A stretch of 64,000 nucleotides of DNA from Gonapodya prolifera JEL478 (taxonomy: Eukaryota; Monoblepharomycota; Monoblepharidomycetes; Monoblepharidales; Gonapodyaceae), in the NCBI GenBank assembly GCA_001574975.1, contig KQ965836.1, positions 112,815-176,814 of the forward strand, written 5' to 3'. Shown here piece after piece: positions 60,036 to 64,000 of the stretch. The notes below the pieces were generated by a model, which worked only from the letters and a program-made list of their open reading frames with translations, did no database searches and was not told where the DNA came from. Each line of letters starts with the position of its first letter. Within the stretch, counting starts at the first letter, position 1. Made by a program: the position numbers and the translations under genes.

Positions 60036-60305
60036 CCCATCTGAGGCAGAATTTTATACCGTTGGATTTCCCCCACCACATAACGAAGACACATTACTAA
60101 TCTATACACATTATTATTCCACTTTTATTCACGTTTTGTCGTCAAATGTATTCAGAGGAATAAATTTTGGAAGGGATTGCAATCGGGATATAAACTTGGG
60201 AATGAATAGCGAATTAGTTTGCGATATTTTGAGGAGCTCATAGTGCGCATACAGCACCTCATCTCCTTTGCACCGGTCGCCTCACCTCCGACGTCAAATC
60301 CGATG
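60036..60305 (+). repeat. Inverted repeat, left arm
   Basis: Shares with the reverse complement of the right arm, in order, gttggatttcc, ccaccaca, aacgaaga, ttattccacttttattca, attttgaggagc and gtcgcctcacc. The arms are diverged with small gaps. The interval between them is about 185 bases. Confidence 0.7.
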
Positions 60306-60489
60306 GGCCGGGCCCCATGGTGCTAGCCTCGTGTCATGGCAAACGTTGTCGGGATCACAGTAGTGTACGTCTCTGAGGACGAACTCCGTCCGCTCATAAG
60401 GGACGACTACTCAGAACACGAAGGGAGGTACTCGCTTTTGCACAACGAGAGATGACAACAATGTGGACATTCGGTTGGTCAGGCGAGAT

Positions 60490-60723
60490 GACGTTGGATA
60501 TATGTCGGATGGTGAGGCGACTGGTGTGAGAACACCGTTCGCTCCTCAAAATTTATTCGCAATTTATACCGCAACTCCAATCCCCTTTTGTTCAAAGATT
60601 TTTTAATCAGAATAAATTTGCTCACGAAACTTGAATAAAAGTGGAATAAAAGTGTGCACAAAGTTGGTAATATATCTTCGTTGTGTGGTGGCGGAAATCC
60701 AACAGTAGAGAATTTGGGTAGCC
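60490..60723 (-). repeat. Inverted repeat, right arm
   Basis: Diverged inverted copy of 60036-60305; for example, its reverse complement reads gttggatttccgccaccaca followed by aacgaaga, and later attttgaggagcg. Confidence 0.7.
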
Positions 60724-60909
60724 GGTTTGGGGGTGAGGAGTCGGAAGGGGATGCCGCGGAGGTGGCTTGAAAGTACTTTTATGTTCGCAAGTCATCACAC
60801 ATTTCCAAAGGAAAGCATTCTGCAAGCCCACTAGGTGTGATGAAAAGATTGCTTGCTGGGAGAGTGAGATCGAGCATCAATGACCTGATGTTGTCAATTC
60901 CCACAAACA

Positions 60910-61143
60910 GTGTCAAGTACATCACATATTATGCTTACTGGAGACATTGCAATGGATGACGGGGATAGGGAAGAGGGACAGGTTTCAAGCAATGAAGACA
61001 ACGAAGTGGAGTTGGAGGAGTGTGTGCACCTTAATGGGCCAATCCTGGACTACCCAAACATGGAGGTGGCATCCCAAGCAACTGTTGTTGGTCTGCCTTT
61101 TGACATGAATCGCGAGCCGTTATTGCAACCAGTGTCACACTGA
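60910..61143 (+). CDS. Short acidic open frame, doubtful
   Basis: A 77-codon open frame with an acidic stretch (DDGDREEGQVSSNEDNEVEL). Not recognised. It may be an exon or remnant linked to the ParA-like sequence downstream; it ends where repeat copy 1 begins. Confidence 0.25.
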   Translation: MSSTSHIMLTGDIAMDDGDREEGQVSSNEDNEVELEECVHLNGPILDYPNMEVASQATVVGLPFDMNREPLLQPVSH

Positions 61144-61372
61144 CATTCAATAATGTGGAGTATATAGTGTTGTATGAGTGTTGGGTATTAGCTGCTGTGC
61201 CACTACTGTGGCCGCGGGTTTAGATGTGCACACCTGCAGGACGTGCCCTAAGTTTGGCATCACGTTCCTGCAGGTGAGTTCAATGCACATTACATCTTGC
61301 TATGTACATCTGATCATATATACACGTTCCTGCAGTTTAGAGGCTTGTGCAGCTCACTTAGGTTGTGTAGCA
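61132..61372 (+). repeat. ~240-bp direct repeat, copy R1
   Basis: Starts gtgtcacactgaca, continues gagtgttgggtattagctgc, ccactactgtggccgcgg, acacctgcagga and ttcctgcaggtgagttc, and ends ttgtgtagca. Highly similar to R2 and R3 in the same orientation. It lies just upstream of the ParA-like coding remains. Confidence 0.88.
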
Positions 61373-61394
61373 ACCAGGGCAACTGCATTACGCA

Positions 61395-63094
61395 AAAATG
61401 ACTATCACATATACTACACCAATTACAACTTCAAAATTGTTGCCTTTTTTAATCACAAGGGTGGTGTTGGGAAAACCATGCAGTTGGCTGGGAGCTTGCT
61501 TTGAAGGGAGAGAGCACCATTCTGTTTGACTTGGATCCACAGACCAACCTCACTCAGCTTACACTTGGACAACTTGCCAACACATTTCAGAATCAGCCAG
61601 GCAACTTTGATGCATACTTTGCATCAATAGGCGCAGAAGATACAATTTATACTGCCTTGCAGGTGCTTAAGCTGCCACATGAAGTGAAAGCACCATCACT
61701 TATTGAGCTGAAAGTGAGTGAATAAAGAATTGTTTCTTTTCCCTCAGTCAGACCTCATTCCAGCTCCACCTCATGGGCATGACTGGGGACACTTGTACTT
61801 ACTACATGGGGACTCCAACATTTACAAACAAGAACATTTGGTGACTGCATGCACATTCAGAATGGGAGCAGGAGAAATGGGCAACCAATTTGGAGCACTT
61901 TTCCACCTTGCAAAGCTCACTGCATGTGCACACAATGCTAGCTTTGTCCTAATGGATCTGAGCCTTCACCTGGAATCAAGAATCAAATTGCTTTGGCAAG
62001 TTGTGATTACTTCCTGGTGCCATGTGCCCCAGAGTACTTTTCTTTCCAAGCAGTGAAATCACTGACAAAGTGAGTCTTTGCATATGAACATGGTGCAATG
62101 CCTTCAAACTCATGCTTTTTTGAGTCCTCAGTGTCACACTGACATCCACTAATGTGGAATATATAGAGTAGTATGAGTGTTGGGTATTAGCTGCTGTGCC
62201 ACTACTGTGGCCGCGGGTTTAGATGTGCACACCTGCAGGACATGCCCTAAGCTTGGCATCAAGTTCCTGCAGGTGAGTTCCATGCACATTACAACTTGTT
62301 ATGTATGTTTGATCATATACACACGTTCCTGCAGACTACAGGCTTGTGCAGCTCACCTAGGATGTGTAGCACTCAGGTTTGTACAAAATTGGTACAATGG
62401 GAACTCAGAGGAAAGAATAAACAACAGTAGTATGCAAATTCACACTCTCTTGGACCTATACAATCAGATGCAGTGTTTGCCCTGTTCTTTCTATTGCTTT
62501 CTTTTCTTGAGGACATGTTAAAATTATTTTGACCCTCAATTTTAGTTCAGATGAAACCAATTATGTAACCCCGTGTTCTTTGGTGGCATAATTTCTCAAT
62601 TTACTTTCCATGCAAATGATGAAGCCTTGTATAACACAAGAAAATACTTATTGGCAGTTGAAGAAGCCCTTCAGCACATGAGCTACGCTCTTCCAGACCA
62701 CTGGGTGGGAAACCAGCAATTCTATCAGAATGTTATTGGAAAACAACTTCCATGAACATCCCATGCTCTGAAAATTGGGACAGCTGCAATAGTCAAGGAA
62801 TATCACCAGCTGGCAGCCATTTCCTAGCAAAAGACACTTCCAGTTGGATTGCTTTCCCCAGATCAGCTGCTCAGATTCAAGCAGAGAATTTCAGAGTTTC
62901 ACAAGATCTGGGCAACAGTGGTGGAAAAGATGATTTGTTCACCACCGGGGAGCCATAGTGAAGCTGGGGTCCTCCACCTGGCCAGCTGCAGTCTCCGGGA
63001 GGATACCCCAACATGCCATCTCCCCAGTATTGGGGGTACCCAAATGCCCCATCTCCTCAGTATTGGGCAGGATCATTGTTGAATTGTCCCTGAT
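61395..63094 (+). pseudogene. Bacterial-type ParA/Soj-like ATPase gene, decayed
   Basis: Three sets of ParA-family signals occur in order. IVAFFNHKGGVGKT (about 61433-61487) is a deviant Walker A. After a frame change near 61490 comes ALKGESTILFDLDPQTNLTQ, containing the DxDPQ motif. LYLLHGDSNIYKQEH and FVLMDLSLHLES then give the Walker B/switch region. A one-base shift at about 61972 restores NQIALASCDYFLVPCAPEY and FSFQAVKSLTK, the classic continuation. Repeat copy R2 (62131-62371) interrupts the sequence. After it come FGGIISQFTFHANDEALYN and a C-terminal part with LLRFKQRISEFHKIWATV, then two YPNxPSPQYWG units near 63010-63065. Family members partition plasmids or chromosomes in bacteria. 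With at least two frame breaks it is very probably inactive, unless unrecognised introns explain the breaks. Confidence 0.72.
62131..62371 (+). repeat. ~240-bp direct repeat, copy R2
   Basis: Copy of R1 (999 bases downstream) with scattered substitutions. It sits between two conserved blocks of the ParA-like remains. It keeps cctgcaggtgagttc and acacgttcctgcag about 60 bases apart. Confidence 0.88.
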
Positions 63095-64000
63095 GACTGA
63101 CGGTAGTAAAAATGGTAAAAGGAGGAGGATCAGAAAGCTAGTCTAAAAGTGAGATATGTATAATGCAAATGTCAAAGCTGAACATGTGTGTAATATTATC
63201 AAATTCAAGTCTGCATTGGAGTCTTTTGCAACCAAAAGAGTGCCCCCTCACCCTCCTTTTGAACTCAGTCAGAAAGGGTACTGCAGATGCTCTAACTCCA
63301 ACTGTGGCACCTGCAAGGTGCGTGCTTGTGTGGTCCTTCTACCTCCTTTTGTTTGCGTTTGATTCTGCCACAAGGGAATCCATTTTTCGTGCACAACTTG
63401 TCACACTGACATCCACTGACGTGGAATATATAGAGTAGTATGAGTGTTGGGTATTAGCTGCTGTGCCACTACTGTGGCCGCGGGTTTAGATATGCACACC
63501 TGCAGGACATGCCCTAAGTTTGGCATCACAATCCTGCAGGTGAGTTCCATGCACATTACAACTTGTTATGTATATTGATCACACATACATGTTCCTGCAG
63601 ACTACAGGCTTGTGCAGCTCACCTAGGTTGTGTAGCACAACTGTTTGCTTCATATTTTTACATTCCTGTTGCCCTTTTTGCTCACACAATGATCCTCCAA
63701 GGTCGTCCATGTCACATATTTTACATACCCCCACCCAGAGAGCTACCCCCACACTGGAGCCAGGTACCCCCAGTGCATGAAATTACAATTTTGGATATCC
63801 CATATACGAATTTGCATTTCCAAAAGATTAAAAATTTTCCTTCAACTTTATTTTGAAGGTTATGGATAATTGTTCATGGGTGCAAGGGTGTGGCATTAGA
63901 ACACAAAATAAATTTAGAAAAATCCACATATTGATTAATTTTTTTGCGAACAGTGAATAATTGAATTGAGGACTTTAATAATTCCAAAATAATTTTATGA
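63095..64000. other. AT-rich end of window
   Basis: Contains repeat copy R3 and short open frames without recognised similarity (for example 63156-63362, with CSNSNCGTCKV). No gene is supported. The sequence after 63780 is strongly AT-rich. Confidence 0.4.
63399..63638 (+). repeat. ~240-bp direct repeat, copy R3
   Basis: Third copy, same orientation, 1,268 bases after R2. The match begins at gtcacactgacatccactga and ends at ttgtgtagca. Confidence 0.88.

Follow-up and report, generated by a model that had tools for sequence, protein, structure and literature searches.

A decayed bacterial-type ParA ATPase gene and its apparently intact, putatively intron-bearing sister in the genome of the fungus Gonapodya prolifera

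ATPases of the ParA family are best known in bacteria for distributing DNA and other cargo. What, then, is a ParA-type gene doing in pieces at the end of a contig of the fungus Gonapodya prolifera, and was it ever of use there? The window analyzed here, a stretch of 64,000 nucleotides, holds pieces of a ParA-type ATPase with a deviant Walker A motif at 61424-62944 on the forward strand, with the NHKGGVGKT and VLMDL blocks in frame 2 and the FDLDPQTNLT and CDYFLVPCAPEYFSFQAV blocks in frame 1. Our data indicate that a bacterial-type ParA gene has genuinely decayed into a pseudogene here, and that a sister gene elsewhere in the genome is apparently intact.

Identification of the segment rests on a profile of 143 unique bacterial, phage, plasmid, and viral-contig sequences, from which both fungal copies were excluded. 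Four of the 1583 open reading frames (ORFs) in the window matched this profile at E-values of 8e-5 to 6.1e-12, in the same order in the window as in the profile:

61178-61501, forward strand: ORF matching profile positions 4-19 (E 6.8e-6)
61453-61722, forward strand: ORF matching profile positions 24-78 (E 1.4e-9)
61718-62053, forward strand: ORF matching profile positions 99-158 (E 8e-5)
61942-62070, forward strand: ORF matching profile positions 159-194 (E 6.1e-12)

The next-best ORF in the window stood at E 0.82, and a reversed-window control with 1718 ORFs gave nothing better than E 3.3, bearing out a sequence-only reading of the window that had placed ParA blocks here in family order. The copy has a KGGVGKT Walker A with the early lysine, but is shortened after the motif, and carries FDLDPQTN (the D.D.Q.N block) and FVLMDL (a hydrophobic-D Walker B). 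Curated models responded faintly: three of nine submitted pieces matched Pfam AAA_31 at 14.8-18.5 bits, each below the curated cut-off of 27 bits, and NCBIfam gave sub-threshold matches only. The piece at 61942-62070 matched 24 plasmid records, the best eight showing 50-53% over 36 amino acids. A plasmid search with 61718-62053 (no match at E 1) and a phage search with 61718-61960 (no match) were negative because these pieces are too diverged by themselves.

The C-terminal third (62567-62944) scored 14.4 bits when its three pieces were pooled, against a best of 5.3 bits in 200 shuffles; scored one by one, none of the pieces rose above the shuffles. Pairwise BLAST of 62555-62752 and 62828-63079 against the corresponding exon of the sister gene, which lies on contig C7, gave no meaningful match, and 62555-62752, searched singly, matched nowhere else in the genome at E 10. 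The fourth C7 exon, searched against the genome, matched 62642-62884 in the window (E 2.1e-5), spanning one TGA and one TAG, and a read-through of the window copy, with X at the breaks, scored 163.9 bits against a profile including C7, with similarity over the full length including the C-terminal third. ParA similarity is clear up to about 62884, short of the end at 63094 that the sequence-only reading had given the segment. The window copy and its surroundings can be divided as follows:

61133-61372, forward strand: upstream copy of a 240-nt repeat, with ACCAG on each flank
61424-61489, forward strand: N-terminal piece with Walker A (FKIVAFFNHKGGVGKT), frame 2, from the profile match and alignment to C7
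61478-61492, forward strand: first frame change, frame 2 to frame 1, from collinear matches in differing frames with no room for an intron
61489-61713, forward strand: FDLDPQTNLT piece, frame 1 (profile E 1.4e-9)
61714-61747, forward strand: candidate 34-nt GT-AG intron (GTGAGT...CCCTCAG), predicted from its signals, between aligned pieces
61748-61960, forward strand: piece with the Walker B block FVLMDL at its end, frame 2 (profile E 8e-5)
61958-61964, forward strand: the reading shifts a second time, from frame 2 to frame 1, with no space for an intron
61963-62069, forward strand: piece with PSPGIKNQIALASCDYFLVPCAPEYFSFQAVKSL, frame 1 (profile E 6.1e-12; plasmid matches)
62070-62376, forward strand: candidate phase 2 intron, lengthened by a repeat, with donor GTGAGT as in C7
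62132-62371, forward strand: 240-nt dispersed repeat copy with TG...CA ends and CTCAG on each flank
62377-62473, forward strand: exon piece FVQNWYNGNSEERINNSSMQ..., in phase with the exon before; aligned to C7, singly not significant
62474-62545, forward strand: possible third intron, weak, with an acceptor-like ATTTTAG ending at 62545 and an uncertain donor
62546-62567, forward strand: possible third frame change, hinging on the end of the uncertain intron
62567-62752, forward strand: C-terminal piece NPVFFGGIISQF...GKQLP, frame 2, significant only jointly with the next two pieces
62753-62755, forward strand: in-frame stop TGA
62756-62824, forward strand: C-terminal piece TSHALKIGTAAIVKEYHQLAAIS, frame 2, from joint C-terminal tests and C7 alignment
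62825-62827, forward strand: in-frame stop TAG
62828-62944, forward strand: C-terminal piece QKTLPVGLLSPDQLLRFK..., frame 2, from joint C-terminal tests, with similarity clear to about 62884

In the assembly, the lesions of the window copy comprise frame changes near 61478-61492 and 61961, the stops TGA (62753) and TAG (62825), and a Walker A region that, compared with C7, lacks two to three residues after KT. A third frame change near 62560 is only possible, since the candidate intron before it lacks a certain donor. Of the frame breaks that the sequence-only reading put near 61490 and 61972, the first stands, while the second lies nearer 61961, and neither leaves room for an intron. A normal spliced gene, another outcome that reading had considered, is half right: introns are predicted and likely, yet they leave two frame changes and two stops unaccounted for. 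By the standard of an open frame after splicing plus a complete P-loop, the window copy as assembled falls short of a functional gene and should yield no working ATPase. Alternatively, the copy may be functional and its lesions may be sequencing or assembly errors. The frame changes sit in or beside short single-base runs and could be such errors, and coding similarity is retained over most of the copy's length; however, the two separate in-frame stops and the shortened Walker A region are less easily explained in this way, and we regard a functional window copy as decidedly improbable.

The stretches 61714-61747 and 62070-62376 are likely introns, judging from their splice signals and their position between aligned pieces. 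The GTGAGT donor at 62070 is a phase 2 site, 65 nt past the first base of the DYFLVP codons; in the C7 copy, GTGAGT likewise lies 65 nt past the DYFLVP codons, in the identical phase. The two copies do not agree in the place or the phase of their first introns. The sequence-only reading took the gene to be broken by a copy of the local repeat, which our analysis does not uphold: the repeat at 62132-62371 starts directly after CTCAG, and CTCAG recurs right behind it, leaving a possible splice acceptor downstream with the next piece (62377 on) in phase. The repeat thus seems to have entered the 3' end of a candidate intron, not necessarily breaking the gene. Three copies lie in the window (61133-61372, 62132-62371, and 63399-63637) and at least 41 places across many contigs of the genome carry it (398 candidates, 40 scored). 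Perfect 5-bp flanking duplications were seen by eye around six of nine distinct copies inspected, and with its TG...CA ends this ~240-nt repeat looks closer to a solo LTR than to a classical MITE. A mobile element carrying a ParA gene, which had been proposed as one possible source, was noticed around neither copy, and the copies are on different contigs.

Searches of the 47.6 Mb genome with AAA_31 and with C7 exons located the second ParA gene at C7:694471-695839 (modeled exons), on a contig of 911 kb with an adenylate kinase ORF about 0.2-0.25 kb downstream. A four-exon model of this gene, with its start codon left unplaced, has 391 codons and no stop, and its predicted introns of 92, 66, and 35 nt are each GT-AG. 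The ATPase motifs are retained (KGGVGKTTTT Walker A, VDMDAQCN, and FVLLDLSPS), and two of three pieces exceed the AAA_31 cut-off at 53.7 and 31.1 bits (first piece E 3e-14). Against a five-sequence profile including C7, the structure 3pg5 matched at E 1.7e-41 over profile positions 3-320 of 348. Genome searches with C7 exons, whose counts are lower bounds, gave no further clear copy and one weak match on contig C118 (E 0.04). This gene had escaped the sequence-only reading, as had the C-terminal third of the window copy and the in-frame stops at 62753 and 62825.

From its open frame and retained motifs, the C7 copy is probably functional. When its coding sequence was subjected to simulated decay by substitutions only, 403 of 1000 replicates were still open after 0.02 changes per site, a number that fell to 132 at 0.05, to 14 at 0.1, and to zero at 0.2; since C7 is nevertheless open, it appears to have been constrained since the copies split. 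The same reasoning extends to the window copy: the presence of only two stops after divergence to 34% identity suggests that it was mostly open through its history and died recently, on a very rough estimate about 0.05 changes per site ago.

Are the two copies sisters? The window copy (C106, after its contig) matches C7 at 171 bits, with 34% identity over 361 residues, while the best prokaryotic or viral matches among the loci gathered were 129 bits for C7 (a bacterial contig) and 105 bits for C106 (a prophage record), making the fungal copies each other's best match by bits among the loci compared. These scores also support the earlier assignment to a bacterial type of ParA, as does the relatives profile. 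Relatives were sampled as the best 80 of 563 confirmed genome-contig places, the best 80 of 161 viral places, and four phage or plasmid loci; 160 of these 164 loci gave proteins, of which 143 were unique and 105 remained after thinning at 75%, while 76 further loci, searched separately, were left out of the trees. In the tree with all 105 bacterial and viral rows the fungal copies pair with SH-aLRT 95, although two long branches meet there and the tree program warns that such joins may be false. A smaller tree, built with more care on 52 of the 105 rows (14 selected and 38 taken at random), gives the pair 100/99. When one fungal copy is omitted, the other has no firm neighbors and falls near the base of a large clade; C7 without C106 joins eight rows with support of 53.

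Two independent bacterial transfers, one per copy, could also account for the pair in place of one transfer followed by duplication. The copies are just 34% identical, their first introns differ, and long branches may attract. However, the 100/99 pairing, the mutual best match, and the intron-like donor at the same base and phase all speak against this, and the shared site and mutual best match favor the pairing independently of the tree; we therefore consider separate transfers improbable and retain a single transfer with later duplication.

The donor is harder to name. The family is carried by bacteria of many phyla and by many viral contigs, and with such a spread and such long fungal branches the tree singles out no donor. 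Among the rows in the trees, the nearest to both copies by path length is bacterial (L046). Among the viral matches listed, the highest identity to C7 belongs to the viral contig L097 (41% over about 205 residues), a partial identity that exceeds the full-length average between C7 and C106; the best partial identity for C106 in the collections searched is 34.8%, among the matches listed. These patterns leave a small but real chance that the gene entered via a eukaryotic virus or from an ancient endosymbiont rather than directly from bacteria or phages. The family is common on viral contigs, L097 is the highest-identity row to C7 among the matches listed, and the very long branches leave room for intermediates, but L046 is nearer to both copies by path length, and the contig with the best match in a separate search is not recognizable as a eukaryotic virus from its ORFs, inspected by eye. 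We favor an old acquisition, probably from bacteria or phages. Because our comparison set consisted of bacterial, phage, plasmid, and viral collections, its presence in eukaryotes may predate any transfer into fungi.

Since the window copy lies in the last 2.6 kb of contig C106, which ends together with the window (C106:112815-176814), bacterial contamination or a misjoined contig end has to be weighed as well, and the lower GC content of the sequence in which the gene lies, 0.43 against 0.53 for the window, could point the same way. Contamination is nonetheless unlikely given the shared intron site, the paralogue on the 911 kb contig, and the genome-wide repeat: the copy has intron-like signals, one of them common to the paralogue near the adenylate kinase ORF, and the 240-nt repeat inside it also lies on many other contigs. 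Nor did the collections searched, which covered bacteria, plasmids, phages, and viruses, hold anything close to it: the best partial identities among the matches listed are about 41% (C7) and 34.8% (C106). We give this explanation only a slight chance. A kinesin motor gene lies upstream of the ParA segment, at 56-57 kb of the window, and the assembly yields 63 matches to the Zn2Cys6 domain (PF00172), while none of 14 prokaryote control genomes yields any; this domain is nearly confined to fungi, to our knowledge, and so speaks for a fungal assembly. A search for 5.8S rRNA gave none (1607 candidates, 39 scored). A probable old horizontal origin for a gene now eroding in a fungal nuclear genome, as the sequence-only reading had it, is supported.

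Could the copies instead be relatives of the eukaryotic MRP/NBP35/CFD1 or Get3 proteins? All of these have a deviant Walker A, and the genome has MRP/NBP35/CFD1 genes that the AAA_31 model also matches. Yet against five genomic P-loop loci (exon-split DNA, the fifth, on C31, with no family assigned) C106 and C7 scored at most 27 bits, compared with 105-129 bits against prokaryotic and viral ParA proteins, and the four identified loci have SGKGGVGKS where the fungal ParA copies have HKGGVGKT. An MRP/NBP35 identity, which the sequence-only reading had named as a possible outcome, is accordingly borne out for neither copy, and we find a eukaryotic relative of this kind barely credible.

The closest relatives appear to be lone ParA-family ATPases of ~335-360 amino acids from bacteria, phages, and plasmids, such as Salmonella phage SE1 gp23, Pantoea dispersa WP_222952515.1, Vibrio campbellii WP_282252948.1, and PDB 3pg5. 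Fungal and lone proteins are alike in domain order, length, and C-terminal third, and in the motifs HKGGV[GS]K (NKGGVGK in the Vibrio row), D.D.Q.NL, and D[YF]F.VP..P..F. The fungal copies differ in their intron-like interruptions, in a linker insertion in C7, and in the broken state of the window copy; they also have VPCAP where four aligned prokaryotic and phage rows have VP[TMA][TS]P, and, near the C terminus, PVG where these four rows have PVF. Soj/ParF-type partition ParA proteins (PDB 1wcv, 4dzz, and 6iub) have the deviant Walker A ATPase core in common with the fungal copies, but their best matching stretch is mostly confined to the N-terminal block. The eukaryotic MRP/NBP35/CFD1 proteins (Pfam ParA, NUBPL iron-transfer P-loop NTPase) belong to the same P-loop superfamily, but are unlike the fungal ParA copies in Walker A context and, for the genome's own loci, in reaching at most 27 bits in total.

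That one genome contains both a wreck and an apparently intact sister with putative introns suggests that a gene captured long ago came into use, and that one of its copies was later lost. Long ago, the fungal lineage would have acquired a gene for a ParA-type ATPase of ~350-390 residues, most likely from bacteria or phages. The gene would then have gained spliceosomal introns, to judge from the predicted splice sites, and have been duplicated, with both copies retained while they diverged to 34% identity. The C7 copy would have survived, open over its modeled length, whereas the window copy would have been lost recently through two frame changes, two in-frame stops, and shortening of the Walker A region, with dispersed repeats also inserted in its intron and flanks. 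We consider this whole account, from transfer, intron gain, and duplication through long retention to C7 survival and recent loss of the window copy, highly probable.

ParA/MinD ATPases dimerize with ATP and release upon hydrolysis, and by analogy the C7 product may undergo ATP-dependent dimerization as a deviant Walker A ATPase, with release on hydrolysis. Rather than plasmid partition, its cellular task would more likely be to position or regulate some other factor. Whether the fungus has domesticated a bacterial or phage ParA as a working nuclear gene, with the window copy a second, long-functional version recently dead, is in our judgment an evenly balanced question; if so, C7 would be a constrained, intron-bearing deviant Walker A ATPase in a positioning or regulatory role.

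Fungi are well known to have acquired metabolic enzymes from bacteria, and inter-domain transfer with intron gain is a familiar kind of history, but a ParA-type ATPase is an unusual gene to be captured. The window copy adds what appears to be a recent loss that followed long retention, introns having been gained in the interval. The open C7 gene makes it testable whether, and for what, a fungal cell uses such an ATPase. A survey of 44 early-diverging fungi describes bacterial xenologues in chytrids that gain introns and form post-transfer paralogues (PMC11291939), the same path of transfer, intron gain, and duplication in other gene families; the word ParA is absent from its main text. Among the open-licence papers listed, and in the available parts of PMC11291939 and PMC7159879, we found no account of a comparable ParA in a fungus.

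Several smaller observations concern other loci and the flanks. AAA_31 matches on C82, C7:684329, C23, and C22 were considered as ParA copies and rejected, being NBP35-, MRP-, and CFD1-type by their letters; among these, Pfam was checked for the C7:684329 exon only. By eye, the CFD1/NUBP2-type Walker A exons at C22:268376-268492 (L006) and C23:286361-286477 (L005) are nearly identical and may reflect a recent duplication or alleles left uncollapsed. An acidic ORF of 84 amino acids (60889-61143), immediately upstream of the first repeat copy in the ParA region, could have served the ParA gene as an N-terminal exon; it had no match below E 0.38 in the rest of the genome. Beyond the end of ParA similarity, a proline-rich repeat (SPQYWGYPNAPSPQYW), seen by eye at 62980-63090 in another frame, may represent a C-terminal tail that has since been lost. 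The stretch 60050-60714, a short way upstream of the pseudogene, holds nested imperfect inverted repeats, with main arms of 51 and 66 nt (84% and 79% complementary; 563 and 418 nt apart), which are possibly a degenerate terminal-inverted-repeat element.
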